Positions 7,457 through 28,057 of a DNA stretch of 64,000 nt are shown here, one piece after another. Both the position numbers and the translations under genes were made by a program. The stretch comes from Micromonospora ureilytica (GTDB lineage Bacteria; Actinomycetota; Actinomycetes; Mycobacteriales; Micromonosporaceae): contig NZ_JADOTX010000001.1 in assembly GCF_015751765.1 (NCBI RefSeq), positions 5,952,001-6,016,000 on the forward strand, given 5' to 3'. Positions within the stretch are counted from its first letter, which is position 1, and every line of letters begins with the position of its first letter. The notes beneath the pieces were generated by a model. That model had not been told where the DNA came from and ran no database searches. It saw only the letters and a program-made list of their open reading frames with translations.

Positions 7457-7533
7457 GCCCCTGTAGCTCAGCTGGCCAGAGCACTCGCCTTGTAAGCGAG
7501 ATGTCGCCGGTTCGATCCCGGCCGGGGGCTCCA
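7457..7533 (+). tRNA. tRNA-Thr (anticodon UGU)
   Basis: A full cloverleaf can be drawn. The acceptor stem pairs 7457-7463 with 7523-7529. The D stem is GCTC/GAGC and the anticodon stem CTCGC/GCGAG with loop CTTGTAA (anticodon TGT). The T arm is GCCGG-TTCGATC-CCGGC. The discriminator is T and CCA is encoded (7531-7533). From 7489 onward the gene is supplied by the inserted element's att repeat, so integration left the tRNA intact. Confidence 0.95.
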
Positions 7534-7545
7534 ATTCCATCAGGC
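7489..7545 (+). repeat. attL: left copy of the 57-bp attachment repeat
   Basis: Exact 57-bp match to 23630-23686. It runs from the anticodon loop of tRNA-Thr through the T arm, acceptor 3' strand and CCA, and 12 bp beyond. Integration into the 3' half of a tRNA with restoration of the gene is the hallmark of AICE tyrosine recombinases. Confidence 0.95.
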
Positions 7546-7579
7546 ATTTCCCGATGGGCACTGCCACGAGTCGACCGGT

Positions 7580-7601
7580 TGACAGCAACGCTGACAGCAA
7601 C
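7580..7601. repeat. Tandem TGACAGCAAC repeats, likely integrase arm sites
   Basis: Two direct copies of TGACAGCAAC (7580-7589 and 7592-7601, 12-bp spacing) lie between attL and the int stop. Further copies are at 23527-23536 (inside the element, left of attR) and 23721-23730 (outside it). Position on both sides of the core suggests arm-type integrase or Xis binding sites. Confidence 0.55.
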
Positions 7602-7606
7602 GGCAC

Positions 7607-9045: not shown

Positions 9046-9077
9046 CGGTTGGCCTTCCTCGTGCGGCGCGGCGGGGG

Positions 9078-12670: not shown

Positions 12671-12966
12671 GGCTTGTCACCGGCCCAGCGCTGTTGGGCG
12701 GCTTGGCGGGTGATGCCGAGGCGGGAGCCGATTTCGGCCCAGGAGTAGCCGAAGGCCCGCAGGCCGATCACGGCTTCCCCGATGGCGTCGTCGATGACGG
12801 ATGACAGGGCGATGAGGTCGCGGAGGGCTTCGACGTCTCCGGTGGCGACGCGGCGGCCGTGGGCGCGGATGATGCGCCGTGCGAACGAGGCGAAGGCGTC
12901 GTTCTCGACGACGTCCCGACGCCGTTGGCGCGGAACGGATGTCAAGGGCTTCTTGACGGTGTTCAT
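12667..12966 (-). CDS. Small helix-turn-helix protein
   Basis: A 99-aa basic protein. Its C-terminal FGYSWAEIGSRLGITRQAAQQRW is a clear sigma-70 region 4-like helix-turn-helix, preceded by a helical segment (ALRDLIALSSVIDDAIGEAVIGLRAFG). It has ATGA overlaps with both neighbours. It is probably a DNA-binding regulator of the element; the target site is unknown. Confidence 0.75.
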   Translation of the reverse strand: MNTVKKPLTSVPRQRRRDVVENDAFASFARRIIRAHGRRVATGDVEALRDLIALSSVIDDAIGEAVIGLRAFGYSWAEIGSRLGITRQAAQQRWAGDKP

Positions 12967-13403
12967 CGGATCTCACCTCCGGTGGTGCGGAGGGAGTCCC
13001 ATTCGGTGGCAGCCGCTTGGAGGGCGGTGATGACCTGCTCGGCGGTGCGGGCGGGGTCGTCGTTCCAGGAGTAGGGGGAGTCCCACTCGTCGAGGAGGTA
13101 GCCGTCTTCGTCGATGTGGAAGATCGGGGCGGTGGTGTCGAGGTAGTCGACGAACACGCCGAGGGTGGCGAGGTAGTCGGCGAGGGCGTCGGGGTCGAGC
13201 TGGGAGAAGTGCTCGACGGTGTGTCCGGCGCAGGCGATGCCGATGGCCCCGGCGGCGCAGGCCGGCGGGGTGAGGGTGTCGGTGTTGTGGGCGTAGTAGG
13301 TGCCCTGGTGCCAGCCGTGCCGGCGGAGGTAGAGGGCAGCCATCCGCAGCAGGTCAGCAGGTGTCACCTGGATCTGTGTGGGTGGGTTTTGGGTAGCCTT
13401 CAT
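12963..13403 (-). CDS. DUF6197-like AICE protein
   Basis: A 146-aa protein from the ATG at 13403, with AAGGACG upstream; a GTG three codons earlier sits on that ribosome site and is unlikely. LLRMAALYLRRHGWHQGTYY, then PPACAAGAIGIACAG, then a helical end (WNDDPARTAEQVITALQAA), follow the DUF6197 pattern. Members occur widely in actinobacterial elements and phages without known function. This is the first gene of the overlapping chain that runs down to int. Confidence 0.65.
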   Translation of the reverse strand: MKATQNPPTQIQVTPADLLRMAALYLRRHGWHQGTYYAHNTDTLTPPACAAGAIGIACAGHTVEHFSQLDPDALADYLATLGVFVDYLDTTAPIFHIDEDGYLLDEWDSPYSWNDDPARTAEQVITALQAAATEWDSLRTTGGEIR

Positions 13404-13487
13404 GGCAACCACGTCCTTTCGAGGTTGTTGGTGGAGGTCGGCAGGACCAGCGGTTGCTGCCAGGCGTTGACTGGTCCTGTCGGCCGA

Positions 13488-13697
13488 TCAGTGAGTGCGC
13501 AGCCGCAGGTAGCGGCGTTGCCGGTTGTCGTCGCCGCCCATCGGGCTCGGCGAGGACACGTAGACGAGTCGGCCGCTGGCAGACGCGGCACGGACCATGA
13601 CGGCGATGTCCTCGGGACGGCCGACGATCCACAGCTCGGTGAACTGGGCGGCGCGTTGGTTGTTGGCCTTGGCGTAGGCGCGCTCGCGGGTGGTCAT
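13488..13697 (-). CDS. Small hypothetical protein coupled to the FtsK-like gene
   Basis: A 69-aa product whose ATG overlaps the stop of the FtsK-like gene by 4 bp (ATGA). The sequence (TTRERAYAKANNQRAAQFTELWIVGRPEDIAVMV, then SGRLVYVSSPSPMGGDD) looks like a single alpha/beta unit. It is part of a longer spurious frame. Not recognised; probably a transfer-operon accessory gene. Confidence 0.65.
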   Translation of the reverse strand: MTTRERAYAKANNQRAAQFTELWIVGRPEDIAVMVRAASASGRLVYVSSPSPMGGDDNRQRRYLRLRTH

Positions 13698-14563
13698 GCC
13701 GCCATCTCCCACTCGGTGGGGTTGACCGCCGGGGTGCTGGTGCCGGTGGGGCGGCGGGTCCAGGCGGCGTAGTCGGCGATGTTGTAGATGTCGGTGTCGG
13801 TGAGGTACGCCGCTTTGATGCGGCGGGGGACGCCACCTTCGGCCAGGAGGTAGGCCGCGCCCTGGTTGGTGGGTGAGATGTCGGAGGCGGTGTAGCCCTG
13901 CTCGGCCCAGCCCTGACCGAGGATGATGTTTGAGCTGTTCAAGCTGGTGCACCGAAACGCGGCCCGGTAGCCGAACAGGTCCCGCAGGCTGGCGGGGATG
14001 ATGTCCCAACTTGGGCGTTGGGTGGCCGCGACGACGGGCATACCGCAGGCGCGGCCGAGGGAGACGAGCCCTCGCAGGAGGGTGGAGAACTCTTCCTGTT
14101 GCTGCTTTGTGCCGAGGACGGTGGAGAACATGGCGAGTTCGTCGATGATGGTGACGATGACGGACATGCCGTCGCCGTCGGCGAGCTTGCGGCGCCGGTT
14201 CGCTAGGAGCCAGGCGTAGCGGTTGGTGGCGACGACCAGGAGGCGACGCAGCACCTCAATGGCTTGGTCGATGTCGGGGCCGATGAAGGCGTCGGCGAGG
14301 TCGCGCCAGGGGCCGAGTTCGACGAGTTTGGCGTCGAAGAGCACGAGGCGGGTGTTGTCGCACAGCGCGGCGTGGCCGCAGATGTTGTTGATGAGGCCGG
14401 ACTTACCGCCGCCGGGTTCGCCTGCGGTGAGCAGGTTGCGGTAGATGACGTCCAGGTAGACGGGTTGGCCGAACTCATCGATCCCGATGAAGATCGGGTC
14501 GAACATCGACAGGCCAGGACCCACCGGAACCGCCTCAGCAGTGGTGGGAATCGTGGTGGTCAT
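13694..14563 (-). CDS. FtsK/SpoIIIE-type DNA translocase (AICE transfer protein)
   Basis: A 289-aa ATPase from the ATG at 14563, which has a strong ribosome site (CAGGAGGG). Walker A is LLTAGEPGGGKSGLINNI and Walker B SVIVTIIDELAMF; VVAATQRPSWDIIPASLRDLF is the conserved FtsK ATQRP motif. It lacks membrane segments, so it may be anchored by the membrane protein encoded just upstream. In AICEs and Streptomyces plasmids one such protein (TraB/TraSA) pumps double-stranded DNA between hyphae. Its short length is usual for AICE versions. Confidence 0.88.
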   Translation of the reverse strand: MTTTIPTTAEAVPVGPGLSMFDPIFIGIDEFGQPVYLDVIYRNLLTAGEPGGGKSGLINNICGHAALCDNTRLVLFDAKLVELGPWRDLADAFIGPDIDQAIEVLRRLLVVATNRYAWLLANRRRKLADGDGMSVIVTIIDELAMFSTVLGTKQQQEEFSTLLRGLVSLGRACGMPVVAATQRPSWDIIPASLRDLFGYRAAFRCTSLNSSNIILGQGWAEQGYTASDISPTNQGAAYLLAEGGVPRRIKAAYLTDTDIYNIADYAAWTRRPTGTSTPAVNPTEWEMAA

Positions 14564-14646
14564 GAGGTGCCCTCCTGGGCGTTGTGGGCGCGAGGAGCCA
14601 CACGATCGAGCCGCCATGGCTCCTCGCGTCCCGGGTTGGGTTGAGG

Positions 14647-15579
14647 TCAGATCCAGTCGGAGGTGTCGTCGTCCGGGACGGATGACGAGGAAGCCGCGGG
14701 CTTACTGCCGTTGGCTGTGGTGGCCGGCGTCTTCGCCGGCTTGCCCTGGGTTGGGAGGGTGATCGTCGGAGCGGCGACGTCCGGCAGGTCCAGGGCGGTG
14801 GGGACCGTCAGCGGTGATGCCGAGACGGGGGCGGTCGGGTCGATCACGTCGACCAGTGGGGAACCGACGTGGGCGGTCAGCACCTCGCGGCGTTTGATGT
14901 CGAACCGCAGGTAGGCGGCGTTGTTCTCCGAAGCGCGCTCGATGAGCACGGTGGAGGCGTGGCAGGTGACCGCGATCTTGTCGAGGCGGCCTTCCAGGTC
15001 CTTGGCGGACAGGCCGGGGCGCAGGTAGACCCAGACCCGCTCACCAACCGGGGTGGGCCTGGCCCAGAGGATCAGCGGCAGGCTGCCGGACTGGTTGGCG
15101 ATGATGAACTGCGCGAAGCACACACGCAGCCGATGCCTCACCACGAGGCACCATGTCCAGGCGATGACCTGGCGGCGAACCGGGCGGATGGCGGCGGGGA
15201 CGCCGACGACCAGGGCGACCACAAGCAGAGTCACCAGGGTCGGGGTGTGGTTGGCCAGCTGCACCCACGCGGTAAGCAGCAGGACCGCCAAGGCGGTTTC
15301 GAGGCTCCACCACCACAGCAGCCGAATCACCGGCCAGATCCGCACGAGCAGCCACACGGCGGCACCGGTGGGAACGCCGATCAGCGCACCGACGAACAGG
15401 GACACAATGGGGTGCCAGTAAGAAGCGGCCACCACGGCCGACAGAAGGCCGACGATGACCGCCGTGAGGATGAACGCCATCTTGGCGTTGCGTGCGGAGG
15501 AGCGGTGGACTTTGGCCTCGATGACCGTCACCGTTCCGGTTGACCTGCCGCCGAAGCGGCGGGGGCTAGACTTGGACAT
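14647..15579 (-). CDS. Membrane protein of the AICE transfer operon
   Basis: A 310-aa protein from the ATG at 15579, which has GGAGGACT upstream; the longer frame is not protein-like. Four hydrophobic segments occupy about residues 30-150 (AFILTAVIVGLLSAVVAAS, IVSLFVGALIGVPTGAAVWL, LETALAVLLLTAWVQLA, LVTLLVVALVVGVPAA). A soluble domain follows (ERVWVYLRPGLSAKDLEGRLDKIAVTCHA), then a Pro/Thr/Ser tail. It lies 83 bp upstream of the FtsK-like gene and probably forms its membrane platform. Function is inferred from context. Confidence 0.7.
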   Translation of the reverse strand: MSKSSPRRFGGRSTGTVTVIEAKVHRSSARNAKMAFILTAVIVGLLSAVVAASYWHPIVSLFVGALIGVPTGAAVWLLVRIWPVIRLLWWWSLETALAVLLLTAWVQLANHTPTLVTLLVVALVVGVPAAIRPVRRQVIAWTWCLVVRHRLRVCFAQFIIANQSGSLPLILWARPTPVGERVWVYLRPGLSAKDLEGRLDKIAVTCHASTVLIERASENNAAYLRFDIKRREVLTAHVGSPLVDVIDPTAPVSASPLTVPTALDLPDVAAPTITLPTQGKPAKTPATTANGSKPAASSSSVPDDDTSDWI

Positions 15580-15624
15580 GACGAGTCCTCCCAAGCACAT
15601 TGGGTTGGATGAGTTGGAGGGCAC

Positions 15625-15732
15625 GGGGTCGGCAGATGTAGGAGTCGGACCGACCCCGCGCCAGCTCTTGCGGGGTTGCCACCACCGTTCGTGGTGACGG
15701 GCCGGGAATGTAGGAGTCGGAACCACTCCCGG
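15625..15732 (-). ncRNA. Paired hairpins sharing a 14-nt loop, leader of the transfer operon
   Basis: Stem 1 pairs 15625-15632 with 15650-15657; stem 2 pairs 15702-15707 with 15727-15732. The stems differ in sequence but both loops contain the same 14 nt, ATGTAGGAGTCGGA (15636-15649, 15708-15721). On the operon strand the loops read TCCGACTCCTACAT, with an anti-Shine-Dalgarno-like CUCCU. A third stem (about 15681-15695) lies between. It may be a structured 5' leader, a protein-binding RNA or a DNA origin; the class is not known. Confidence 0.45.
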
Positions 15733-15815
15733 ACCTTGGATCTCAGATCAGCGGACCGTCAGGCCGCTTTCGTTCGTCAGACACCAGGGCTCACACAGTG
15801 CGGTGAGCGAGGGAC

Positions 15816-16136
15816 CTACTTAGCCGCCGAGTTACCAGCCTTCGGCTTCAGCGTGATCGCACGGAACGCGACGCCGTTGCGCCCGTTGGTCGCCCACGGA
15901 ATAGCCTCCAACTGCTCGACAGCGACGAGCTGTCCCACCGTCACGCCCGGCTTCTCACCCGCCGTGGTGATGGTGATGATCTCGCCGCCAGTCTCGTCGA
16001 GCACGAAGACCTGGGTCGACCACATGAGCCGGCCAGTGTTCTTCTCCGACCGCTGATTGCCGTTCTGGTCGTTCTTCGGCTCCGGGTCCTTCGTCACCTG
16101 GACCTGCTTGCTCTGGGTGTCCACGTACAGCTTCAC
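15816..16136 (-). CDS. Pra-like replication/excision activator
   Basis: A 106-aa product from the GTG at 16136 with a strong AGGAGG upstream. It is small, hydrophilic and beta-rich (TGRLMWSTQVFVLDETGGEIITITTAG, VTVGQLVAVEQLEAIPW). Size and position, between the transfer genes and divergent from the reg-nud-mdp module, match Pra of pSAM2, which activates rep-xis-int. Identity rests mainly on context and length. It shares a 176-bp divergent control region with reg. Confidence 0.65.
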   Translation of the reverse strand: MKLYVDTQSKQVQVTKDPEPKNDQNGNQRSEKNTGRLMWSTQVFVLDETGGEIITITTAGEKPGVTVGQLVAVEQLEAIPWATNGRNGVAFRAITLKPKAGNSAAK

Positions 16137-16248
16137 AACAAACCTCCTGGGTCTCGGGCCAGGTAATGAGCTAGTCCCCGGTGGACTGTTGCTCGTGGCC
16201 TCTGCGGATAAGGCTCCCGAAAAGCCAGGGACAACCCATCCGATGGGC

Positions 16249-16278
16249 TGGACGACTATGGGACGTCTTGGTTACGAT
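16249..16278 (+). promoter_or_regulatory. Promoter of the reg-nud operon
   Basis: TGGACG (16249-16254) and TACGAT (16273-16278) are spaced 18 bp, upstream of the reg ATG at 16313. GTCCC-containing repeats surround the start point (GGGACG at 16260-16265; GCGTCCCTAGTCGTCCC at 16283-16299), which could be a repressor operator. AGGAGG precedes the ATG. Confidence 0.5.
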
Positions 16279-16312
16279 GAATGCGTCCCTAGTCGTCCCT
16301 TGAGGAGGAACG

Positions 16313-17071
16313 ATGCCTAACGACCGGCTCCGCGATGCCATCCTGCGCAACGGCCTGACGCCGGTCACTGTGGCCGAAAAAATCGGGGTTGACGCGAAGA
16401 CCGTAGAACGGTGGATCACGCAAGACCGGACGCCGTACCCGCGTCACCGACACGCAATCGCGGCAATGGTGCGGGAGGACGTGCCGTACCTGTGGCCAGA
16501 CGCGGTGACCCCCGAGAAGGCGTCGAGGATTGGGCAGAGCGAGTTGGTGCAGCTCTACACCCGGCGCTCTGCCGTGCCGTACGACCTATGGCGTCGACTG
16601 ATCGAACGCGCGGAGAAGCGAATAGACGTGCTGGCCTACGCCGGCTTGTTCCTCGTAGAGCAGGACCGCAGGCTGATCGAAACCCTGCGTCAAAAGGCTG
16701 TTGACGGCGTCACGGTGACAATCCTGCTCGGGGACCCGAGTAGCGAGGCGATCGAGCGCAAAAGCATCGAGGAAGGTTCGCCGGGTGTGATGGCGGCGAA
16801 GATCCGCCAAGTTCAGCAGTACTACAACCGGCTTGACGATGCGCCCGGGGTGAAGGTCCGTTACCACGACACGACGTTGTACAACTCGATCTATCGCTTC
16901 GATGACGAGATGTTGGTGAACATGCACGTGCTCGGGTTTCCGGCGCCACATGCGCCTGTGATGCATCTGCGCAGGCTCAGCGGCGGCGATCTGTTCGGCA
17001 CGTACGCCGACAGCTTCGACCGGGTCCTAGCTGCCTCGACGACTCAGCCACGCGGCGAGATGGCAGCCTAA
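16313..17071 (+). CDS. AICE regulator: helix-turn-helix plus PLD-like domain (Reg)
   Basis: A 252-aa protein. The N-terminal helix-turn-helix (LRDAILRNGLTPVTVAEKIGVDAKTVERWI, residues 5-35) is followed by a C-terminal phospholipase-D-like domain (RIDVLAYAGLFLVEQDRRLIETLR, then VTVTILLGDP, and VNMHVLGF...APVMHLRRLSG) that lacks an obvious HKD catalytic motif and may sense a ligand. It is the first gene of the reg-nud pair and divergent from pra. In AICEs such regulators keep pra and hence replication silent. The same C-terminal domain recurs in the protein at 24192-24962. Confidence 0.8.
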   Translation: MPNDRLRDAILRNGLTPVTVAEKIGVDAKTVERWITQDRTPYPRHRHAIAAMVREDVPYLWPDAVTPEKASRIGQSELVQLYTRRSAVPYDLWRRLIERAEKRIDVLAYAGLFLVEQDRRLIETLRQKAVDGVTVTILLGDPSSEAIERKSIEEGSPGVMAAKIRQVQQYYNRLDDAPGVKVRYHDTTLYNSIYRFDDEMLVNMHVLGFPAPHAPVMHLRRLSGGDLFGTYADSFDRVLAASTTQPRGEMAA

Positions 17072-17075
17072 GAGC

Positions 17076-17546
17076 ATGGCAAGAACCGAGCACTACCACG
17101 ACCCGAGCGCGCCGAAGGCCAACAGCATCGTCGTCGCCGTCTCCGTCTTCGCACGAGACGATCGCGGACGGGTGCTGCTCATCCAGCGGACCGACAACGG
17201 CCTGTGGTCCCTGCCCGGCGGCGGACAGGAAGTTGGCGAGTCGGTCGCAGAGACGGCAGTCCGGGAAACCCACGAGGAAACCGGCATCCGCGTCGAAGTG
17301 TTCGGGATGGTCGGCGTCTACTCCGACCCCGGTCACGTCATTGAGTACTCAGACGGCGAGGTACGACAGCAGTTCTCGCTCTGCTTCCGCGCAGTACCGG
17401 TCAGCGGCACACCGACGCCGAGCGAAGAGTCACATGACGTCCGGTGGGTGGCCCGCGACGAGCTGGCCGCGCTCGACATCCACCCGTCGACCCTGCTTCG
17501 CATCACCCACGGCTACGAGGAACGCCCCGAGCCCTACATCCGCTGA
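17076..17546 (+). CDS. NUDIX hydrolase (AICE nud)
   Basis: A 156-aa protein starting 4 bp after reg. The Nudix box runs from GGGQEVGESVAETAVRETHEE into TGIRVE, with the expected G-x5-E-x7-RE-x2-EE-x-G spacing. The family cleaves nucleoside diphosphates linked to another moiety; the substrate here is unknown. A NUDIX gene next to pra/reg is a recurring AICE feature (nud), proposed to sense or clear a nucleotide signal. Its 3' end overlaps the convergent mdp gene by 13 bp. Confidence 0.88.
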   Translation: MARTEHYHDPSAPKANSIVVAVSVFARDDRGRVLLIQRTDNGLWSLPGGGQEVGESVAETAVRETHEETGIRVEVFGMVGVYSDPGHVIEYSDGEVRQQFSLCFRAVPVSGTPTPSEESHDVRWVARDELAALDIHPSTLLRITHGYEERPEPYIR

Positions 17547-18097
17547 TGGACGCCGGCGAGCCGGCGCTGAGTCCGCTGCACGGCAGCGACCATCTCCGGT
17601 TCCGCCCGACCGATGAACCGGGTAACCAGGTGCTCCGGCCCGTACCGCGACCGAATCTCCGCTAGCCGGTCCAACACCTCGAAATCCTGGCCATCCGGTC
17701 CAGTCGTCATGTCTGCGCAGCAGATGGCGTCGGTAACCGCGGTTTCCTCCCGAGGGAACTCGGCGGCCAGGGCCTCACCGAGCCCACGCTCGTCGGCTTC
17801 CAGCCAGGCGCAGGAGTGATGAGCGACCAAGGCGGCAATCCGCTCATTGAAGTGCTCACGGCGTAGCCAGCGGCCACCGTCAAGCGAGTGGAAGCCGGTG
17901 TCGACCAGGTCAGGGCTGTAACCGACGTCGTGTAGCCAAGCCGACGCTACGAGCACCTCACGATCCTCGCTCGGGACTGCTCCGCTAATCCGGTCCGCCT
18001 TGGCAGCGACCGCCTGGACGTGACTCCATCGACGGGGCAACGGTGTCTCCAGCAGGCGTCGTGCAACTTCCCGAGCGGTGTCGACGAGGTCGGCCAT
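17534..18097 (-). CDS. HD-domain metal-dependent phosphohydrolase (AICE mdp)
   Basis: A 187-aa protein from the ATG at 18097. The HD motif is SAWLHDVGYSP; an upstream His (RWSHVQAVA), AALVAHHSCA and AICCADMTTG supply the other metal ligands. The family hydrolyses phosphate esters such as nucleotides or (p)ppGpp; the substrate is unknown. With pra, reg and nud it forms the four-gene cluster described for AICEs. It converges on and overlaps nud. Confidence 0.85.
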   Translation of the reverse strand: MADLVDTAREVARRLLETPLPRRWSHVQAVAAKADRISGAVPSEDREVLVASAWLHDVGYSPDLVDTGFHSLDGGRWLRREHFNERIAALVAHHSCAWLEADERGLGEALAAEFPREETAVTDAICCADMTTGPDGQDFEVLDRLAEIRSRYGPEHLVTRFIGRAEPEMVAAVQRTQRRLAGVHQRM

Positions 18098-18844
18098 ATC
18101 GCCAGGGTACGGAGGCACCCGGTCCGCTCGCCATCCCGTGTTCGGGTGCCGGCCGAGCTGCCGGCGAAGTGGTTCAAAGTTTCTGTACGTCTTCAAGGCG
18201 GCCCTGAACGGGCCGCACGCGCCGCCGCCTGGGCGCGCGTCCGTCGCTCCGCTGGCGCTCCGACTCCGGCCACGCAACACGCCCGGCGGCTGGCGCGGAA
18301 GCGGGAAGCCCAAGGGGCCGCCGCAGAACGACAGGCGGCTGGCCGGGTGGTGGTGGGCCGGCAGCCGGCCGGGCCGCGCGGCAAGCACCGCGCGGCGCAG
18401 GAGAGTGCACGCGGTCGCGTCGGCGAGCTGGCGACGATCGCAGGGTCGCGGCTACTGCGCCTCCGGCGGGGGCGCTCCGGCTCCAGGATGGCCGCGGCTG
18501 CGTCGGCGGCTTGCGGTCCGTGGGTGGTTGCGGTGGGGAGCCATCCCGTCGCCGTCGACCCGGGCGAGCCGAGCAGACCGCCGCCCGACCCGCCAACCTC
18601 CGTTCGGGTGTCAAGGTCCGCTTGACGTGGCGGGCCGGGCGGCGGCCCGCTCCCAGGAGGGCGGGTCGACGGCGACGGGATGGCACGTCGGCGTGTGCGA
18701 GGCGGATACTGCCCCCGCCGTCGGCTTGGGACGGGCGGTCAACAACCAGCTCAGCCCGCCGTCTGTACGAGCCGCCAAGATCCGTTTTTAGTGGCGGGCT
18801 GAGCAACAGCCCACCAGCCGAGGAGATTGATTCACAGCCTACGG
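18098..18844. other. Long gene-free GC-rich stretch of the AICE
   Basis: About 750 bp between mdp and the cargo with no protein-like frame. It is very G/C-rich up to about 18770, then drops sharply in GC. It holds short imperfect palindromes (for example around 18350-18400). A motif near 18243-18260 (GCTCCGCTGGCGCTCC) is repeated with one mismatch right of attR near 23759. It could hold a transfer locus (clt) or decayed DNA; no known repeat set was recognised. Confidence 0.4.
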
Positions 18845-19459
18845 TCACTTGCGCTTGAGCTTTAAGAGCACGGGCTCCAGGGTCTCGAGACCTAATAGGA
18901 TGTCAGCAATCGTCTGTCGCATCTGTTGAGGGTCGGGGGGCGTCTGTACCTTGATAACCGAGTTGTGGGCAACAGCACCGCGTTGCCCTCCGAACGAGTT
19001 CATCGTTGCAAGCCAAACCGGATCGAGGTCTGCTTCAAGGACACCGACGGGCAGTAACACGCTAAGGAGGTTCTTCTCCTTGATCCCGTGATTGTCATGT
19101 GAGACATAACGTTCATGCTCGCTCAGCAGCCTAACTACATGTGCTTCAAATGTATCGTTGTTGGTCTGCCTTACGACAGCTTTTGGCGGCTGGACACTTC
19201 GTGCGCCATACAGCATTAGGGCGGCGATGCATCTGCCGGTACGCTGGGAGTTTTGCCACCTCGTCTTTGCTGCGAGAAGAATATCCTGAGCCACGTCTTC
19301 GACGTAAGACTCGACTTCGGCATGCGTTAGTACGACGTAAGCGCGCACCCCATCGTACTGCCGTTGCGAGTAGAGGCCAGTCGGATTTACCTTGGGAAGA
19401 AATCGGCTTTCGAGTTGGCGAACCCGGCGCTGCAGGGTCTTAAGCCTCCGCGTAGGCAA
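18845..19459 (-). CDS. HEPN-domain protein (candidate RNase toxin)
   Basis: A 204-aa helical protein from a TTG at 19459 with GGAGGGG just upstream, overlapping the DUF262 gene by 20 bp. The N-terminal coil (LKTLQRRVRQLE) precedes ...HAEVESYVEDVAQDILLAAKTRWQ. The C-terminal GQRGAVAHNS holds an R-x4-H motif, the catalytic signature of HEPN ribonucleases. HEPN proteins of the RiboL-PSP and MAE_28990 types often sit beside DUF262 genes. Likely an RNA-cutting effector in a two-gene defence unit. Base composition is much less GC-rich than the core AICE. Confidence 0.7.
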   Translation of the reverse strand: MPTRRLKTLQRRVRQLESRFLPKVNPTGLYSQRQYDGVRAYVVLTHAEVESYVEDVAQDILLAAKTRWQNSQRTGRCIAALMLYGARSVQPPKAVVRQTNNDTFEAHVVRLLSEHERYVSHDNHGIKEKNLLSVLLPVGVLEADLDPVWLATMNSFGGQRGAVAHNSVIKVQTPPDPQQMRQTIADILLGLETLEPVLLKLKRK

Positions 19460-20621
19460 TTCGCCCCTCCGTCGAGGTGCGAGGAATCGGAAGGGTCAGT
19501 CCGATCGCCCTTTGTAGTGCCTCACCCCAAAGAACTAGCCTTACGAGGATGGCCTCTCGGCTTTTGGTGGTCGTCGTGATCGATTCCGAGAATTCAGGGT
19601 CATTGCAGACTTCCTTGAAGGCATCTATGACTGCTGCGCCGTTCGTGAGCATAGCTGCCCTCACCGCAGGATCCCGGCCGTAGAATACCATCACATCAAA
19701 TACCGCCCGGTTGAACGGACGTTCGTAGGCTGTCTGGTTCCATCGGCGGAAGGCGTTCGCGCCGAAGATATTGACGGTTATAGCTATTGCGAACCGGCAT
19801 GATTCGGCGTCAAACCTCAGTTGGTCCCCGTCAGAATCCCAGCGCTTGTTGAGTATCTCGCAAGTGCGGTCGAGCAGTGGCTTTAGGTTGCCGACGTAGC
19901 TCGGAAGGAAGTAACTGAACGCATAGAACCTGACTAGTAGCTCGACATCCCTCATTCGGAAGTCTGGAGCCTTCCTCTTGAAGAGGGTGTAGAAGTCCGG
20001 ATGCTCCGCCGTGTATTGGTTGACGAAAGACACAAAAGGCCCGGGGTGGAGGGCTTGACGTAGTTCCTGTGGACTGAGGGATACGCTTTCCGTGTTGAGT
20101 CGCAGGAAAACAAGATATAGAAACTCTTCACGCTGCCAGTTGCGCACCACGATCGTCCGGACCGTTTGGGTCTCGAAGGCTGTCCGGTCGCTTTCGGGCA
20201 AGGCCGCGTAGCTTTTCCCATTAAGGTCGGACCGAACGTCTAGCCCCGTCAGCTTGAAACCCGACTCAGGGTCCGTGAACTGCTGAAGCGTAAGGAGCCG
20301 CTGTTTTCCGTCGAGCACAACGAACTCGCCGCGGCGTCCCTTTCGCTCTGCTAGGACGATCTGAGGCACCGGAAGTCCGACGATCAGGGACTCGATGAAG
20401 CGGCTCTTCTTCCGACGGTCCCACGCGTCACGACGCTGAAATGAAGGGTTAACGTCGATCGTCTTTCGGGAGATTTGATTTAAGATCGTCTCGGCAGTCC
20501 AGTCGGTTGAAACCACTACCGCATCAAAGGTGGTATCGACCAACGGGCCGAGATCTTCTTCTGTCTCACCAAAAGCATCTGGTTCGTCGGAGAACGTCTC
20601 GTCCTCGAAGCTTCTTCTCAC
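19440..20621 (-). CDS. DUF262 protein (GmrSD/ParB-like nuclease family)
   Basis: About 393 aa from the GTG at 20621, which has GGAAGG 9 bp upstream; a TTG at 20693 lacks a ribosome site. The N-terminal DUF262 domain shows IDVNPSFQRRDAWDRRKKSRFIESLIVGLPVPQIVL, then EFVVLDGKQRLLTLQQF (the DGQQR-type motif) and FLRLNTESVSLSPQELRQAL. The DUF1524 HNH nuclease half of GmrSD is absent, so the partner HEPN protein could supply the nuclease. The domain is known from type IV restriction and other defence systems. It follows the restriction endonuclease gene by about 96 bp. Confidence 0.82.
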   Translation of the reverse strand: MRRSFEDETFSDEPDAFGETEEDLGPLVDTTFDAVVVSTDWTAETILNQISRKTIDVNPSFQRRDAWDRRKKSRFIESLIVGLPVPQIVLAERKGRRGEFVVLDGKQRLLTLQQFTDPESGFKLTGLDVRSDLNGKSYAALPESDRTAFETQTVRTIVVRNWQREEFLYLVFLRLNTESVSLSPQELRQALHPGPFVSFVNQYTAEHPDFYTLFKRKAPDFRMRDVELLVRFYAFSYFLPSYVGNLKPLLDRTCEILNKRWDSDGDQLRFDAESCRFAIAITVNIFGANAFRRWNQTAYERPFNRAVFDVMVFYGRDPAVRAAMLTNGAAVIDAFKEVCNDPEFSESITTTTKSREAILVRLVLWGEALQRAIGLTLPIPRTSTEGRIAYAEA

Positions 20622-20717
20622 TAGAGGCCACCTTCCAGCTTTCCGACCCGACTCGTCCTTACCGTACTGGCACGGCGTGGACCTGGGCGACAACCACGGC
20701 AGGTTACCGGATCCATG

Positions 20718-21725
20718 TCACGACCAGCCGGTCTCGGTCCGGCTTGGCAGCTGCTTCTGCCAGTGACTCCCTCCAACTTCCATGACCCATACGAAGGTGT
20801 TATCCGCGATGTTGTCGTGCTTTCGTTGACGCTGAGCAAATTTCGCAAGGGTCCGATAGGCGGTAGTGAAGCCCGCGATCGTCAGTCCTGCCTCTTCAAA
20901 GGAAGTTTCCATCTCATCACGCCGTACATAGTCGACTTCGCCATCACTTTCGACGCAGTCCACTACCCAAAAAACGTTTGATTCGGGGTTATGCAGCAAG
21001 ATGTCTGGCCAGCGGCCAGCGAGATTTAATGGAATACCTAGCCTGGTAATGGCATCCTGGTATATTGCGTCAATCCGGTCACCGTCTTTATCATCTACAT
21101 ATACCGGCGTGTAGCCAGGCAGGAAAGTTGCGCAATAAAGGGCGATGGTGGCGGGAACGAGTCTGCCTCCCTCGTGGGCCGCCCACGCGGCCGATTCGGC
21201 AGTCCTCATTCGGGCTTTTCGGGACTCTGTGTCGGAAAGCCAGATTTCTGCTCGAGGCTTGAACTCGGATGCTGAGCATTCCAGAAGAGACTTAAATTCC
21301 TCGTCTAGGCGGTAGACGCAATGATTGCTCTTCGGTTTCCAGTAATAGGGAATAAAGCGGGCTTCTTTGGGCTCTGCCGTCGCTTTAATGATAATTCCCA
21401 ATTCCCTTAGGGGTAGCTGGACGCTGTCTCTACTCTCGCGATCGATCGTGGGGAGACCCGTTCGTCGAGCCACCTCATCCAGTAGCTTCTTATTGGGAGC
21501 GCCGTCGGAAAACTTGAAGCCAAGCCGGGCCATCACGCTAATCGGACTTGGCGCTTCGTCGTCAGCCAGTGCCAAGATGGCCGCCTCTCGCCGTGGAGAG
21601 TGTTGTCCGAGCGCATCTAACAGGTACTGGACTCGCCGCTGCTTCTCGCCGCTACTGATCACCGCAAGAGTCTGGCCCACTTGGTTGGCAGTACAAGCGT
21701 TCGTGGCGGCGTGTCGTTGGGACAT
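20718..21725 (-). CDS. PstI/BsuBI-family type II restriction endonuclease
   Basis: A 335-aa protein from the ATG at 21725. The N-terminal helical part includes QRRVQYLLDALGQHSPRREAAILALAD. The C-terminal nuclease has RWPDILLHNPESNVFWVVDCVESDGEVD and TIAGFTTAYRTLAKFA, with the late Asp/Glu pattern of the BsuBI/PstI family, whose members cut CTGCAG. It lies 104 bp downstream of a matching adenine methyltransferase. The reading frame stays open and protein-like upstream of the ATG but with no standard start codon. Identification is by pattern; the recognition site is inferred. Confidence 0.75.
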   Translation of the reverse strand: MSQRHAATNACTANQVGQTLAVISSGEKQRRVQYLLDALGQHSPRREAAILALADDEAPSPISVMARLGFKFSDGAPNKKLLDEVARRTGLPTIDRESRDSVQLPLRELGIIIKATAEPKEARFIPYYWKPKSNHCVYRLDEEFKSLLECSASEFKPRAEIWLSDTESRKARMRTAESAAWAAHEGGRLVPATIALYCATFLPGYTPVYVDDKDGDRIDAIYQDAITRLGIPLNLAGRWPDILLHNPESNVFWVVDCVESDGEVDYVRRDEMETSFEEAGLTIAGFTTAYRTLAKFAQRQRKHDNIADNTFVWVMEVGGSHWQKQLPSRTETGWS

Positions 21726-21829
21726 CCGCGAGGACAGTGCCTCCGTTACAACACTCAGCGCGTAAACATCCTCGTTGGCGAGGTAGCTGATGTTTGGGAG
21801 ACTATGTCCGTTGCGCCTGTTCTGCCCGG

Positions 21830-23419
21830 CTAGTTCAGTCCCTCGACGGCATGTGTCGACACTAATGGGTGGACTAGTGCGTCGATTTTTTCTTGATCTG
21901 GCAGGGCAAGGGGTTGGCCGTGGCCGAGGTCGTTCAGTTCCGCGATCGTAGGGAAGCGCATTGACCGCAAGTCGGTAGCGTTCACTTGGGTGTGGCCAGA
22001 GAATGTACGGAAGGCGCGATCGACTACGCTGCTGTTTAGCCAGAGGCTAAGTCCGACCGCGAGTTGACGGTCGATCCCTTGGCCGTTGGCATGAATGATG
22101 TTGAGATGGTTCTCGAAGGCGATGGACGTTGGACCATTCACGGCAGGATCCCAGACGGCCGCGACTATCCTTCTCCTTTCCTCCTTGGCTGAAAAGCGCT
22201 TTATGGCGACGTAGCAGCCCGACGGGAGTAGTAGCTTTTGGGCAGCGACGTCGAGGGCTGCGAAGCCTTGAGCCTTGCGAATTTTCCGTGGCCACTCAAT
22301 CAGGCCGTTTCTAAGATTCCCTGGGTAAATGAGGGGTAGATCAGTTGCCTCGGGTTGCTCTCGGAGATACGGTCTGGACCGGAAATCAACGACTTTGCCA
22401 GTCGACACCTTCAGCCCAAGATCCTTCAGGGTCGAGGGTAGGCTAGATATCATCTGCGTGGACAGGGCGTCATCTTCGCCTGTTGCAATCCTGATAAAGC
22501 GCTCTGGATCTCCGGGACGCACGACATCTTCGTACGAGACCACTCGTCGGACGGCGTCGTCAGCGTCGCCTCTGCTGGACGAGATCGTAATCTCAGATGG
22601 TTGTCCTCCCCGGATTCCACTGATTACTACGTTCTCTTGTAGTACGCCTGTGTCCGAAAATACGCTCGACCGGGAGTCGAACAGATGAATTTTCTTGATG
22701 GTAATGCGGTCGAGCAGGAAGTCCCGGAATGAGGCAAAGTACGGCCCGTTTGCGAAGGACCGTGGAGTAATTGCCGCAAGCTGCCCCCCGGGTCTAAGAG
22801 CTTGGACACCAAGGGCAAGAAATGCTGCGTAAAGATTGGGGCAGTCGACTCCCAGGGCTGATAGTGCCACTCGGCCCTTGGAGCCTGATCCGAGTTTGCC
22901 ATACGGCGGGTTCATTACCACAAGGTCGAACGGTGTGCGTAGAGCAGGCTCGCTGCCACTGGTGGCCATATCGATGAAGTCCCCTAGTACGACCTTCGCT
23001 ACCAGCGAACCGCCGGCGGCTTCTGCCGTGCGTGCGGCATCGTCAAGGGTCGCCTCTAGCGAAGGCGCCAGCGAGGGGTCAATCTCGACAGCTACGACTT
23101 CGAGCTGGAGGCCGGGCGACTGGGTGAGGACCTGTCTGACGAGAGCGGCAGTGAGAGAGCCGGACCCGGCTCCAGGGTCGAGGACTCGCAGACGCCCGCC
23201 GACTGGTAGCTGTGGCATGGCAGCGATCAGGGAGGCGGCCCGAGCCGGGGTGAAGTACTGCCCAAGGCTCGCTTGGCGCGCAGGATCAAGCGACGCCAAG
23301 GCCCGGGTCCTCTGGGTCTCTGCCCGATCTGTGAGCTCGTTGAGAAGCACGGGTGTAAGGGTAGGCGCACTGGCTGGCCATGCCTGGCCTTGGTGGGTGC
23401 CTGCCGACGGGTTCGTCAC
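21830..23419 (-). CDS. Adenine-specific DNA methyltransferase (PstI/BsuBI type)
   Basis: A 529-aa N6-adenine methyltransferase from the GTG at 23419 (AGGGGG upstream). LGQYFTPARAASLIAAM precedes the SAM site LRVLDPGAGSGSLTAAL, the acidic EVVAVEIDPS, and catalytic FDLVVMNPPYGK. The C-terminal half (about residues 330-520) is a target-recognition region. The order and size fit the gamma-class methyltransferases of BsuBI/PstI systems. It protects host DNA from the adjacent endonuclease. It is the first gene of the defence cargo, starting about 210 bp from attR. Confidence 0.88.
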   Translation of the reverse strand: MTNPSAGTHQGQAWPASAPTLTPVLLNELTDRAETQRTRALASLDPARQASLGQYFTPARAASLIAAMPQLPVGGRLRVLDPGAGSGSLTAALVRQVLTQSPGLQLEVVAVEIDPSLAPSLEATLDDAARTAEAAGGSLVAKVVLGDFIDMATSGSEPALRTPFDLVVMNPPYGKLGSGSKGRVALSALGVDCPNLYAAFLALGVQALRPGGQLAAITPRSFANGPYFASFRDFLLDRITIKKIHLFDSRSSVFSDTGVLQENVVISGIRGGQPSEITISSSRGDADDAVRRVVSYEDVVRPGDPERFIRIATGEDDALSTQMISSLPSTLKDLGLKVSTGKVVDFRSRPYLREQPEATDLPLIYPGNLRNGLIEWPRKIRKAQGFAALDVAAQKLLLPSGCYVAIKRFSAKEERRRIVAAVWDPAVNGPTSIAFENHLNIIHANGQGIDRQLAVGLSLWLNSSVVDRAFRTFSGHTQVNATDLRSMRFPTIAELNDLGHGQPLALPDQEKIDALVHPLVSTHAVEGLN

Positions 23420-23526
23420 TTCGCTACCCCCTGCTCACACGCGTGCATGTTCTTTCTGGCATCGAGGGCAGGGTGCATACGCTGGCCATAGACGAGCAAG
23501 GGAGTGGAGGGCGACGACAGCAGCGC

Positions 23527-23536
23527 TGACAGCAAC
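23527..23536. repeat. Integrase arm-type repeat left of attR
   Basis: TGACAGCAAC, preceded by GC as at 7592-7601. It lies 94 bp inside the element from attR; see the tandem pair beside attL. Confidence 0.45.
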
Positions 23537-23629
23537 CGCGCCGGACGGCGGCACGCTGACGAGTCTGGGCATGGACGAAGCTCCGAGCGTGCGGCCGTTC
23601 CTGGACGAGCCTGGACGACCTGCACAGAG

Positions 23630-23686
23630 CTTGTAAGCGAGATGTCGCCGGTTCGATCCCGGCCGGGGGCTCCAATTCCATCAGGC
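23630..23686 (+). repeat. attR: right copy of the 57-bp attachment repeat
   Basis: Exact duplicate of 7489-7545 (tRNA-Thr 3' segment, CCA and 12 bp of flank). The upstream tRNA half is missing, so this is not a second tRNA gene. Confidence 0.95.
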
Positions 23687-24191: not shown

Positions 24192-24962
24192 GTGCGGCTA
24201 CGCAGCACTGGGCGCGCGATTTTGAAGGACCTCCGGCTGCGCCGGAACATCGACCTCTACGCGATGGCGTTCGTCGCACTGGTTTTCGCCGTACTGTCGG
24301 CAGTCGGCGACGTTTTGTCCACGAACCTTCGCTGGACTGTGACCCTCGGGGGCATCGGGCTATTGATATTGCGGGCGGCTCTGCCGGCAAGGGCTGATTT
24401 TGACGCAGTGGGCCGAATTCTTGGTAACCGATCCGCCTTTGACGCCGACCCGCTGACGGACCGTCTAAGGGACGCCCAGGAAGTCTGGGTGTATGCACCT
24501 TCGGCCGTGAACCTGCTCTCGCCTGAGCGGTGCGAAGTTCTCAGACATCAGGTGCTGGGAAGTGCCGCAGGTCGAGTCCGGATCGTGGTCCTCGATCCGG
24601 AGGAGGAAGAGGCGGTTACCGAAGCACGCCGACAACTGGATGACTCTCTCGACTATCCACTCCAGGAGTTCGGCCCATCTCTCGCGTCGGTCGTACAGCA
24701 GTTGCGAAGGATGGCGGCCTGGCAGGTTGCGGGGAAGTTGGAGTGCGGGTTCTTGCCCTACAACCCGGGATTTAGCCTGGTTGCAGTGGATCCAAAATCG
24801 CATCGGGGCGTGGTGATTGTGGAGATGCATGCCTTCCACAACACGTCGACCGCGTCACGCATGCATCTACGTCTGACTCGGGTGGAGAGTGAGGAATGGT
24901 ATTTATACTGGACTTCTCAATTTGAGCAGATATGGGATGCGGCGAGAAAGCCAGGCGAGTGA
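24192..24962 (+). CDS. Two-helix membrane protein with Reg-like PLD domain
   Basis: About 256 aa from the GTG at 24192 (GGAGAGGG upstream); the open frame reaches 23889 but its first part is not protein-like. Two membrane helices (MAFVALVFAVLSAVGDVL, WTVTLGGIGLLILRAAL) are followed by a soluble domain: VWVYAPSAVNLLSPE, VRIVVLDPEEEEAVTEAR, then VVIVEMHAFHNT...SRMHLRLTRVE. This soluble part lines up with the C-terminal PLD-like domain of the AICE regulator at 16313-17071. No HKD motif is visible. It converges on the SIR2 operon. Possibly a membrane-bound sensor or effector; function unknown. Confidence 0.65.
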   Translation: MRLRSTGRAILKDLRLRRNIDLYAMAFVALVFAVLSAVGDVLSTNLRWTVTLGGIGLLILRAALPARADFDAVGRILGNRSAFDADPLTDRLRDAQEVWVYAPSAVNLLSPERCEVLRHQVLGSAAGRVRIVVLDPEEEEAVTEARRQLDDSLDYPLQEFGPSLASVVQQLRRMAAWQVAGKLECGFLPYNPGFSLVAVDPKSHRGVVIVEMHAFHNTSTASRMHLRLTRVESEEWYLYWTSQFEQIWDAARKPGE

Positions 24963-25066: not shown

Positions 25067-25468
25067 TCAGCCCAGCGCGTTGAATTCTGAATCGGGAGCG
25101 AAGCGCTTCGCGTTCCTCGCGTAGATCTTGACGACCTCGACAACCACGTTGCAATGGCTGAGGTTGGCGAACTGGCTCGCGTGGAAGAGTAGCTCTGCCC
25201 CCAGATCCGATCTCTCCTGGAGTACGTTGTCGAAGGCTCGGGCTGCATCCGTGGGGTCGGTGCCATTGTGGAGCTCGTGCTCCACGTGCTCGACGATGAC
25301 GGCGACATCTGCAGTGATCTTCATCAGATGTAGGAGTATATGGCGGACCTGGGCATAAGACGGGTCCTTGATCTGCCAGCCCACAACGTCGTACCGATCC
25401 TGTAGTTCTTGAATGGCGGACGCCCCGTCGCGGGCCCTCGCGATCAAGTCGTTTAGTTCGTCGCTCAT
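25067..25468 (-). CDS. Helical partner protein of the SIR2-PRTase gene
   Basis: A 133-aa, mainly alpha-helical, acidic protein with GGAGAGGAAG upstream of its ATG. It starts 28 bp after the SIR2-PRTase stop, so both are in one operon. Segments such as YAQVRHILLHLMKITADVAVIV and FDNVLQERSDLGAELLFHASQFANL suggest a four-helix bundle, loosely like MazG-type nucleotide pyrophosphohydrolases, but no firm motif is seen. Not recognised. It could be an antitoxin, a regulator or a second enzyme. Confidence 0.7.
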   Translation of the reverse strand: MSDELNDLIARARDGASAIQELQDRYDVVGWQIKDPSYAQVRHILLHLMKITADVAVIVEHVEHELHNGTDPTDAARAFDNVLQERSDLGAELLFHASQFANLSHCNVVVEVVKIYARNAKRFAPDSEFNALG

Positions 25469-25496
25469 CTTGCTTCCTCTCCTCCAGATGTACCCA

Positions 25497-26876
25497 CTAC
25501 CGGACCGATCGACCTAACTTCCCACCCCAGGGGAAGTAGTACTCGCCTTCCAGGGCAAGCTCGTAGTAGTCCATTTCGTGCTCAACCTGAGGGTGAATTA
25601 TCAGCGCTGCGCGCTTGACCTCGAAGCCTTTTGAGGTCAGCAATAGCGCCATCCGGCGCTGTGCCTCTCCCGTAACGACTCGGTCATCGAACAGCAGGAT
25701 CTTGGTCCCTAGCGGCAGGTAGTTAATCACATTGGGTAGATAAATGTCCCACCTCGACGTCCGTTGGTGTATCCACCCTGCTGCTCCTGCCGCTGTCAGG
25801 AACTGTTGTTCGGAGATCGACTTGGGCATTCGACTGGGGAAGGTGACGGCACAAACTACGGGTGTGTCGTTCGTGTCGTGCTTCATGCAGTAAGCCGGGG
25901 CAAAGTTGCCCGGACCGGACATCGCCACCACGATGTCAGGCTGATAGTCCCGATAAAGCCGATTGAAAAGGCGTCCGAGATACCCGCACACCTCCTCCCA
26001 GGTCAACGATCGGGGCTCGCCGGGCTTGCTGGAAGACGCCTCCCGCGCGATGTCGCCCAAGTATGGAGCGAGGTCGTCGTGGCTGACGCCGTACGAGAGA
26101 GGCAACACTCCTCTTGCTGTGAAGTCGTCGTAGGAGCGCTTCACTTCCGATTCCGTCAGCAGGACGACTGGAGGACTGGTGTTGTCTGGCAGTGCCGACT
26201 TCAGCCATTTGGTGATGCCGGCGAAGTTGGGATCCTTGATGCCCTCGCCCATGCCAATAAAAATTACGGTGTGCAGGGCGCTCAGCGCTCGGACCAGCGC
26301 CTGGGAGTATCCATGGTGGATCGCGTCCCCGTAGGATCCGTAGCCGAATACGACGCTTTCGGGCTGAGACCAGACGCCATGCAGATGGGCTATCGCCTTA
26401 CTCTCGCCGCGCAATGCTACCTGGAGTTGGGCGCCGTCGCGCCAGGTAATGGGGCTTAGGTCGAGGTAATCGTCCAATACGGTGTCATAGTTCGTGGTGC
26501 AGATCGGCGCTTTGAGGTCTCGAATGGACTGGAGTAATGAGGTGTCCTGCAGTTTGAGCTTGCCGACAGTGTCCCGTAGCCATTTGTCGAACTGCCCGCC
26601 CGGAATTTCCTTGAGCAGGGCCGTCACTCGTTCCGCGGCGACTATGAGATTATCTGCGGTGGGATCACGCAGGAGTCGCTCGATGTCTTGCAATAGACGC
26701 TTGGGGACGGTAGGTCGGAGGTCTTGGATCCTTGCGACTCCATGCCTTATCAGTCCCGTCCAAGAAGCCAGTTCATGACTGCGCGTCGCGCTCAGCGTCA
26801 CGCCTGTCCCTAAGATAAGAAGCGCCGTCTTTTCACGGACGGCGGCCACAAGTTCGCTACGTAGAGTCACGCTCAC
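25497..26876 (-). CDS. SIR2-phosphoribosyltransferase fusion (candidate defence NADase)
   Basis: About 459 aa from the GTG at 26876, chosen because a consensus promoter lies just upstream; a longer frame to 27056 would start before that promoter. The N-terminal half is SIR2-like: LRSELVAAVREKTALLILGTGVTLSATR (NAD-binding glycine loop), ICTTNYDTVLDDYL, HLHGVWSQPESVVFGYGSYG, VIFIGMGEGIKDPNF. The C-terminal half (about residues 310-459) is a PRTase fold: PDIVVAMSGPGNFAPAYC, then LPLGTKILLFDDRVVTGEAQRRMALLL, which holds the DD-x-x-x-TG PRPP-binding loop. SIR2 domains in anti-phage systems destroy NAD+. The fused PRTase is unusual and may sense or process the products. Composition is less GC-rich than the chromosome. 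Confidence 0.8.
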   Translation of the reverse strand: MSVTLRSELVAAVREKTALLILGTGVTLSATRSHELASWTGLIRHGVARIQDLRPTVPKRLLQDIERLLRDPTADNLIVAAERVTALLKEIPGGQFDKWLRDTVGKLKLQDTSLLQSIRDLKAPICTTNYDTVLDDYLDLSPITWRDGAQLQVALRGESKAIAHLHGVWSQPESVVFGYGSYGDAIHHGYSQALVRALSALHTVIFIGMGEGIKDPNFAGITKWLKSALPDNTSPPVVLLTESEVKRSYDDFTARGVLPLSYGVSHDDLAPYLGDIAREASSSKPGEPRSLTWEEVCGYLGRLFNRLYRDYQPDIVVAMSGPGNFAPAYCMKHDTNDTPVVCAVTFPSRMPKSISEQQFLTAAGAAGWIHQRTSRWDIYLPNVINYLPLGTKILLFDDRVVTGEAQRRMALLLTSKGFEVKRAALIIHPQVEHEMDYYELALEGEYYFPWGGKLGRSVR

Positions 26877-26925
26877 GTTAAGATCGATTCTGTGGTCGAT
26901 AAGACGACGCGGAGCAGGGGATGCA

Positions 26926-26954
26926 AGCGTAGTTAAGCCAGTGCAGAGTGTCAA
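26926..26954 (-). promoter_or_regulatory. Sigma-70 consensus promoter of the SIR2-PRTase operon
   Basis: On the minus strand a perfect TTGACA (26949-26954) and TACGCT (26926-26931) are separated by 17 bp. This predicts a start near 26919 and a leader of about 43 nt before the GTG at 26876. A second TTGACA lies about 70 bp further upstream (around 27027). Confidence 0.7.
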
Positions 26955-27288
26955 TGGGTCTTGGTTTTTTCTTTTGCCTCCAAGTTTCTTAGCCCGTGCA
27001 AGCTTGTCTTCGGAGCGCATTGTCAATTGCAGGATGGTTGGCGTCGGCGACCGCACTCGTTACATCAGTCCAACAAATGGTCGGTGCCGACGGCCCGACT
27101 TGCTCGGCGGGCGACCTGAGGAACAACCACGCCCGCCTGGGGAGACAACTCCCACCGGCTACCTGGGTCCGGCGTGCGGACAGTGAGGTGGTGATGGGCG
27201 GGCCAAAGGGCCACCCGGCCCACATCGGCACCCGGGCGTCGACCGAGCTCGCTATCGTCCGTCCCGCCATCAGGCGGCGGTCCACGGG

Positions 27289-27620
27289 GGAATCACAATT
27301 GAACAGAGCACCACCCTGCTCGTACTGGGTCTGACCGGCGGTCCGCTCGTTGCTGCCGGCTGCACTCCGACGACTGAGCCCACACGTACCGACAAACCGG
27401 TTCGGGCCACCGCCACGGCCACTGCCGTGTCCCCAACGCCGCGGTAACCTGGTCGCGGCATTGCAGCAGTCGCAGAAGGCTGCCCACCGGTACGCAGTGC
27501 GCGGCAACCTGCCCGAAGGGCAGGACGTCAACGGTCAACCCGCATACCTACACCGGCCGTTTCGATCCCACCGGCAAGGACGCCACGTCGTTCCGGCCGA
27601 CGGAGCGCCCGGCGGTAGCC
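27289..27620 (+). pseudogene. Degraded lipoprotein gene remnant
   Basis: Three frames in sequence read like one secreted lipoprotein. First is a signal-peptide end with lipobox (LLVLGLTGGPLVAAGC, then TPTTEPTRTDKPV) from 27301 to a stop at 27445. Then comes NLVAALQQSQKAAHRYAVRG from 27446, and then YTGRFDPTGKDAT in a third frame. No good start codon is present. The rest of the stretch 26955-27655 has no gene. It probably marks the edge of chromosomal DNA damaged by island insertion. Confidence 0.35.
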
Positions 27621-27655
27621 TGGGGCCGGAGCAGCGCGGAGCGGGGCGAGGGCCG

Positions 27656-28057
27656 ATGAGTCGGGCGGTGGAGGAGTCGAACCGGGCGATGCTGCGTGCC
27701 CGGGACGCGATGGACCGGGCGTACGCCGAGCCTCTGGACATCCCCGCGTTGGCCCGGATCGCGCACGTCTCGGAGGCGCACTTCATCCGTACCTTCCGGG
27801 CCACCTTCGGTGAGACCCCGCACCGCTACCTGCAACGCCGCCGGGTGGAGCGGGCGATGGCGTTGCTGGTGGAGACCGACCGGGACGTGACGGACATATG
27901 CTACGCCGTCGGCTTCGGCAGCCTGGGCACGTTCAGCCGGACGTTCCGGCAGATCGTCGGGGATTCGCCCTCGGATTTCCGGCGTCGGCGCGTCGCGCCG
28001 GCGAACGTGCCGTCGTGCTTCACCAAAGCCTGGACCCGACCCAGCAGTTTTGGATAA
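27656..28057 (+). CDS. AraC-family transcriptional regulator (DNA-binding domain only)
   Basis: A 133-aa protein from the ATG at 27656; the longer open frame upstream is remnant DNA. It consists almost wholly of the double helix-turn-helix: AYAEPLDIPALARIAHVSEAHFIRTFRATFGETPHRYLQRRR and VTDICYAVGFGSLGTFSRTFRQIVGDSPSDFRRR. There is no ligand domain. It starts 35 bp before a VOC-family gene, a pairing common in actinomycetes, so it likely controls that gene. Confidence 0.88.
   Translation: MSRAVEESNRAMLRARDAMDRAYAEPLDIPALARIAHVSEAHFIRTFRATFGETPHRYLQRRRVERAMALLVETDRDVTDICYAVGFGSLGTFSRTFRQIVGDSPSDFRRRRVAPANVPSCFTKAWTRPSSFG

Follow-up and report, generated by a model that had tools for sequence, protein, structure and literature searches.

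The question raised by one locus of Micromonospora ureilytica (assembly GCF_015751765.1, contig NZ_JADOTX010000001.1, positions 5,952,001 to 6,016,000 of the forward strand) is what an operon is for that combines a SIR2 domain, a phosphoribosyltransferase (PRTase)-type domain, and a small helical protein. The whole 64,000-nucleotide stretch analyzed is called the window here, and coordinates without a locus label refer to it. The operon is a real, conserved, mobile two-gene system that occurs sporadically in soil actinobacteria. Our reading, to which we give even weight for and against, is that it encodes an abortive-infection cassette in which a SIR2 NAD+ hydrolase (NADase) would be gated by a nucleotide-sensing PRTase domain together with its partner. 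The intact SIR2 site, the degenerate PRTase and nucleoside triphosphate pyrophosphatase (NTP-PPase) folds, the fixed pairing of the genes, and their mobility are all in keeping with an effector under the control of a ligand sensor.

The first gene encodes the SIR2-PRTase fusion (25497..26876, minus strand; 459 amino acids [aa] from a GTG codon). Its longest open reading frame reaches up to 27056 (25497 to 27056, minus strand; 519 aa). In an alignment with 12 homologues, residue 61/62 of this longer frame is the first of the conserved block; nine of these homologues begin precisely there, the other three having longer, dissimilar N termini. The start is therefore most likely the GTG at 26876. 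The earlier note on this DNA had proposed that one protein joins a SIR2 and a PRTase-type domain, and this was borne out: the motifs GTGVT, TTNYD, HLHG, and LLFDDRVVTGE are present, and both folds and both profiles agree. Because the 12 homologues, with one near-identical copy (P0003) set aside, span 88 to 89% of the 519-aa query (39 to 58% identity), the fusion of the two domains is, judged from these alignments, far above chance. The SIR2 domain (residues 1 to 283; 26028..26876, minus strand) has the profile and the fold of the SIR2 family, and the fold search found it to be similar to FAM118B, DSR2, ThsA, and KomC. FAM118A/B was the top sequence match and the joint top fold match, and the solved structures that matched best belong to SIR2 proteins of immunity or NAD processing. 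The signature residues (G23, G25, TTNYD at 127 to 131, and HLHG at 164 to 167) are invariant in all 17 aligned rows, so that the residues with a role in the NAD site, as in ThsA and DSR2, are kept (GxG, the Asn of TTNYD, and the His of LHG). Upstream lies a candidate promoter (26926..26954, minus strand), earlier described as a consensus one. That description holds for the exact TTGACA (26954 to 26949) and the 17-bp spacer, whereas the weak -10 element TACGCT (26931 to 26926) agrees with TATAAT at three of six positions and a scan for consensus promoters detected none. TACGCT would suit the loose actinobacterial -10 sequence TAnnnT.

The C-terminal domain (residues about 284 to 459; 25497..26027, minus strand) was assigned by fold search and profile to the PRTase fold of the purine (Gpt) type. 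The catalytic motifs of type I purine PRTases are a basic-Gly loop I, DDxxxTG, and a base-contacting Lys. Several features of the fold are retained, namely, DD397-398 and the hood PW (17 of 17 rows each), the Gly of the phosphoribosyl pyrophosphate (PRPP) loop (16 of 17), and the Phe of the hood FPW at 448 to 450 (16 of 17). However, the complete catalytic set is not found, and the description of the domain as complete in the earlier note does not stand: loop I reads SGPG or SGAG from S320 and lacks the basic residue, the 5'-phosphate Thr/Ser at 402 is found in 3 of the 17 rows and replaced in 14 (the window copy retains TG), and the Lys at 428 is replaced by His, Asp, or Gly in every row. Because of these replacements, we class the domain as a PRTase-fold relative rather than an active PRTase, and ligand sensing is favored over catalysis, with PRPP as a possible ligand. 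A 216-aa frame at another locus (L024:1372-2022) encodes a PRTase domain ending in FYFPWG that is kin to the PRTase half and lacks a SIR2 domain; by eye, it has a hydrophobic stretch at its N terminus.

The partner gene (25067..25468, minus strand) lies downstream of the fusion gene after a spacing of 28 bp (25469 to 25496) and encodes 133 aa, as was first reported. The product had been described simply as helical. Its model is indeed all-helical, and both fold and profile point further, to the dCTP pyrophosphatase (dCTPase)/MazG all-alpha NTP-PPases, of which it is probably a degenerate, dCTPase-like relative. In hhalign comparisons, the partner alignment gave 90.6% with PF12643 (8 of 12 loci kept; L037, L044, and L045 were left out as cut stretches or for a wrong frame, and L047 was left out as divergent) versus 1.2% with canonical MazG, PF03819 (17 of 30 loci taken, of which L055 and L061 were dropped and 15 kept), and canonical MazG is thus not favored as the nearest relative. 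Sequence searches of Pfam, NCBIfam, and the PDB assigned no family to the partner. Homologues numbered 9 proteins by single-sequence search and 104 by profile search, and 67 of the latter were aligned with the window partner. The four-acid ExxE/ExxD metal site of dCTPase (DCTPP1) and MazG pyrophosphatases is absent from all 68 rows, none of which retains at least three of the four acids; instead, R42, H43, H47, H64, and H96 are invariant throughout (68 of 68). A PADLOC match of the partner to DrmB (E = 0.026) was discarded as chance.

The two genes travel together. There were six distinct loci at which the fusion gene was full length and the DNA following it could be read (the window, Lentzea fradiae [L002], Micromonospora orduensis [L003], a Nocardioidaceae metagenome-assembled genome [L004], Paractinoplanes deccanensis [L005], and L086 of genome G872). 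In all six, a relative of the partner lies directly downstream of the fusion gene, so that the fixed linkage that the earlier note had proposed to look for is supported. In the five loci other than the window, the partner gene, as its start is read, begins before the fusion gene ends and overlaps its stop codon. Circumstantial evidence of pairing came from 7 of the 12 homologues (P0003 excluded), whose longest contig is the same size as that of a partner protein (2316, 9545, 4937, 17643, 15801, 4057, and 6141). Over 13 pairs, i.e., the six loci and the seven contig-matched pairs, the identity matrices of the two proteins are correlated (r = 0.66, a value reached in 1 of 20,000 permutations). 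The coefficient is higher for the PRTase half (0.71) than for the SIR2 half (0.58). Shared ancestry alone also yields correlation of this kind.

Occurrence was surveyed in family, order, and class genome sets, with PRTase-only and SIR2-only matches excluded from the full-length counts. Full-length SIR2-PRTase was present in 3 of 250 family genomes (any match, 5) and in 4 of 397 order genomes (any match, 8). The three family genomes (G000, G564, and G543) are the same three that hold a strong partner match (any partner match, 5). Among 394 class genomes, G000 alone had a full-length SIR2-PRTase, and it alone had a strong partner match; any SIR2-PRTase match was seen in 17 and any partner match in 4. 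The searches found no full two-gene system on phages or plasmids, three plasmids having partial matches to the SIR2 part, and no system was found in 15 genomes of the genus around G016, a genus not previously known to contain it.

The genomic setting points to mobility. The 3' end of a tRNA-Thr gene (7457..7533, plus strand) is an insertion hotspot, and an exact 57-bp attachment repeat is present there (left copy, 7489..7545, plus strand) and again at 23630..23686 (right copy, plus strand). Between them, an element resembling an actinomycete integrative and conjugative element (AICE) spans 7489 to 23686, from the tRNA-Thr 3' end to the second repeat copy, and carries genes for integrase, RepSA, an FtsK-like protein, NUDIX, HEPN, and GmrSD proteins, as well as a BsuBI/PstI-type restriction gene with a methyltransferase gene. 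The operon is located just outside this element, between the right repeat and the backbone, which resumes at about 27613 to 27656; with regard to the defense-island context that the earlier note had proposed to check, the setting is a mobile hotspot adjoining a restriction system. Of 41 same-genus genomes searched, 39 gave some match, and seven stretches were compared at the hotspot. All seven match the window up to the tRNA gene and again from 27613 to 27656 onward, and tblastn found no match at the site in any of them to the operon proteins or to the product of the neighboring gene at 24210 to 24962. The DNA between the flanks measures 230, 362, 924, and 1310 bp in four stretches, and the other three hold 3618, 4070, and 4546 bp of different DNA. 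Since the operon is absent between the flanks in all seven relatives, its segment is, on this comparison, an insertion at the tRNA-Thr hotspot. The GC content is 0.58 over 25 to 27 kb versus 0.69 to 0.76 over 27 to 36 kb. The tRNA-Thr site of one relative (L097:13726-16128) carries other DNA with pieces resembling window positions 18541 to 18685 and 23516 to 23685, which points to repeated use of the hotspot. In L. fradiae, the operon is flanked on one side by an AICE-type set (integrase, RepSA, and FtsK) and on the other by a tRNA-Arg gene, the integrase match being below threshold (E = 1.4e-5).

How such a cassette might work can be outlined as follows. The SIR2 NAD+ hydrolase would normally be off, and the PRTase-like domain and the dCTPase/MazG-like partner would be former nucleotide enzymes whose present task is to bind a nucleotide or phosphoribosyl compound without turning it over. 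Phage infection would shift the level of this ligand or create an unusual one, upon which the PRTase-partner unit would alter its shape or oligomeric state and the SIR2 domains would assemble. Cleavage of NAD+ into nicotinamide and ADP-ribose would follow, with the infected cell halting before phage release. More tentatively, and with less conviction than for the cassette as such, we suggest that the PRTase domain in cis and the His-remodeled dCTPase/MazG fold in trans could form one composite pocket for a phage-induced metabolite, the filling of which would fire SIR2. SIR2 NADases are already known as effectors, and it is the sensing of infection that calls for an explanation; here the sensor would be a two-protein unit of recognizable, apparently degenerate nucleotide enzymes, making its ligand directly screenable. 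If true, the composite pocket would be a new immune sensing principle and a second, independently built nucleotide alarm beside Kongming. If the cassette works as outlined, house-cleaning and salvage enzymes would have been converted repeatedly into such alarms.

A toxin-antitoxin arrangement, in which the SIR2-PRTase protein would be an NADase toxin restrained by the MazG-like partner and freed by phage or stress, overlaps with the gated effector because a sensor can double as an inhibitor. The tight operon, the small partner, the linkage in all six loci, the co-variation of the two proteins, and the patchy occurrence would all suit it. However, the partner is encoded second, and its enzyme-like fold with invariant polar residues is unlike a disordered or DNA-binding antitoxin, which makes this arrangement unlikely. 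We consider it more doubtful still that the PRTase is active and works on NAD products (nicotinamide or ADP-ribose) or on purines, making depletion irreversible or yielding a second messenger. The conserved DD, PRPP-loop Gly, and hood PW and the TG of the window copy speak for activity, and PRTases have been proposed as makers of nucleotide signals in Ter systems in the accessible part of one report (PMC7824862). Against it stand the purine-type fold matches and the replaced residues of loop I, position 402, and position 428, and the processing of nicotinamide or ADP-ribose, suggested in the earlier note, is accordingly not favored.

A role outside defense, in nucleotide salvage or in protein modification with SIR2 as an ADP-ribosyltransferase or deacylase, would be in keeping with the nucleotide-enzyme kinship of both the PRTase domain and the partner and with the similar neighbors in P. 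deccanensis. It is improbable, given that the full-length protein is rare and scattered (1 of 394 class genomes) and encoded at integrative-element sites, that HEPN, GmrSD, and BsuBI/PstI-type restriction genes are nearby, and that the closest solved SIR2 proteins are immune or NAD processing. The partner might also be a decoy or guard, a dead MazG-like protein mimicking the target or the form of phage MazG-like anti-defense pyrophosphatases whose action would release the NADase. The phage MazG-like protein Atd1 is described, in the accessible text, as an anti-defense protein that blocks bacterial suicide defenses (PMC10419184); we regard a decoy as the most improbable of these explanations.

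Among known systems, Kongming (KomABC) likewise has a SIR2 NADase, KomC, which works with KomB, a protein that we take to be HAM1/ITPA-like (one PDB title reads "HAM-SIR2"); the HAM1 fold is alpha/beta. In the accessible portions of two reports, KomB with bound dITP switches on KomC (PMC12948488, PMC12774641). The present cassette differs in having a purine-PRTase-like domain fused in cis and an added dCTPase/MazG-like partner. The SIR2 plus HAM1-like combination of Kongming is not found here, the partner being all-helical and the fused domain a PRTase, and no KomA-like deaminase was seen among the operon neighbors scanned, which were only part of them. By analogy, the cassette is most likely akin to Kongming in principle and not a member of it. 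The SIR2 NADase effector domain is also shared with ThsA (Thoeris), DSR1/DSR2, SIR2-HerA, SPARSA, and Avs5, whose sensors (a SLOG or macro domain, a tail-tube-binding part, a helicase, an Argonaute, and STAND) differ from a PRTase domain with a MazG-like partner. Human FAM118A/B are alike in the SIR2 half, whereas their aligned chains have no PRTase part, and we know of no partner of this kind for them. According to the accessible text, FAM118B assembles into filaments, and NAD processing is ascribed to FAM118A/B (PMC12700824). With the cassette, there would be a further bacterial system in which the SIR2 domain is most similar, among solved proteins, to vertebrate FAM118B. The DprA-PRTase system and the PRTase retron effectors have the PRTase family in common with the fusion, but neither SIR2 nor a MazG-like partner; the accessible part of one report states that the DprA-PRTase pair protects Escherichia coli and proposes the PRTase as effector (PMC9122126). 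MazG is among the nucleotide domains predicted, without validation, to be defense domains (PMC13092281, accessible text). As the earlier note had supposed, no named system with a SIR2-PRTase protein and such a partner was found in the literature searched, which is thin in subscription papers and preprints; this name search is a weak test, since it missed the DprA-PRTase pair too. The accessible portions of PMC9122126, PMC9503650, PMC13092281, PMC7824862, and PMC10419184 do not describe a SIR2-PRTase or SIR2-MazG pair.

Facing the operon in the window is a gene of 250 aa as read (24210..24962, plus strand), with hydrophobic N-terminal stretches by eye and no Pfam family above the cutoff. A relative is present in one of the five other loci (L003:7237-8034; 44% over 246 aa), 2 kb upstream of the operon. 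In P. deccanensis (L005, 7707 to 12725), and in this one of the six loci, nucleotide-enzyme genes flank the operon: a DUF84 triphosphatase-family gene (PF01931; E = 3e-49), a deoxynucleoside kinase gene (PF01712; 5.7e-20) that overlaps the SIR2-PRTase start by 4 bp, a subthreshold nucleoside diphosphate kinase match, and an opposite-strand thymidylate-synthase-like gene. Related SIR2 domains (30 to 39% identity) were found in other contexts. A 1379-aa fusion of SIR2 with a DEAD-box helicase (L089:6094-10233) lies about 35 kb from the L086 locus in genome G872, and at L088 a SIR2 protein has an nSTAND gene 3.3 kb downstream. At L087 (6850 to 10475), the start of a 425-aa SIR2 protein, whose C terminus matched no Pfam family, shares 4 bp with the end of a subtilase gene, possibly as a protease-NADase pair. 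Upstream of the operon in M. orduensis, GAGIS, NFD, and VHG were recognized by eye in L003:7965-9872 (SIR2_2, E = 0.015, below the cutoff), which is perhaps a second SIR2 protein.
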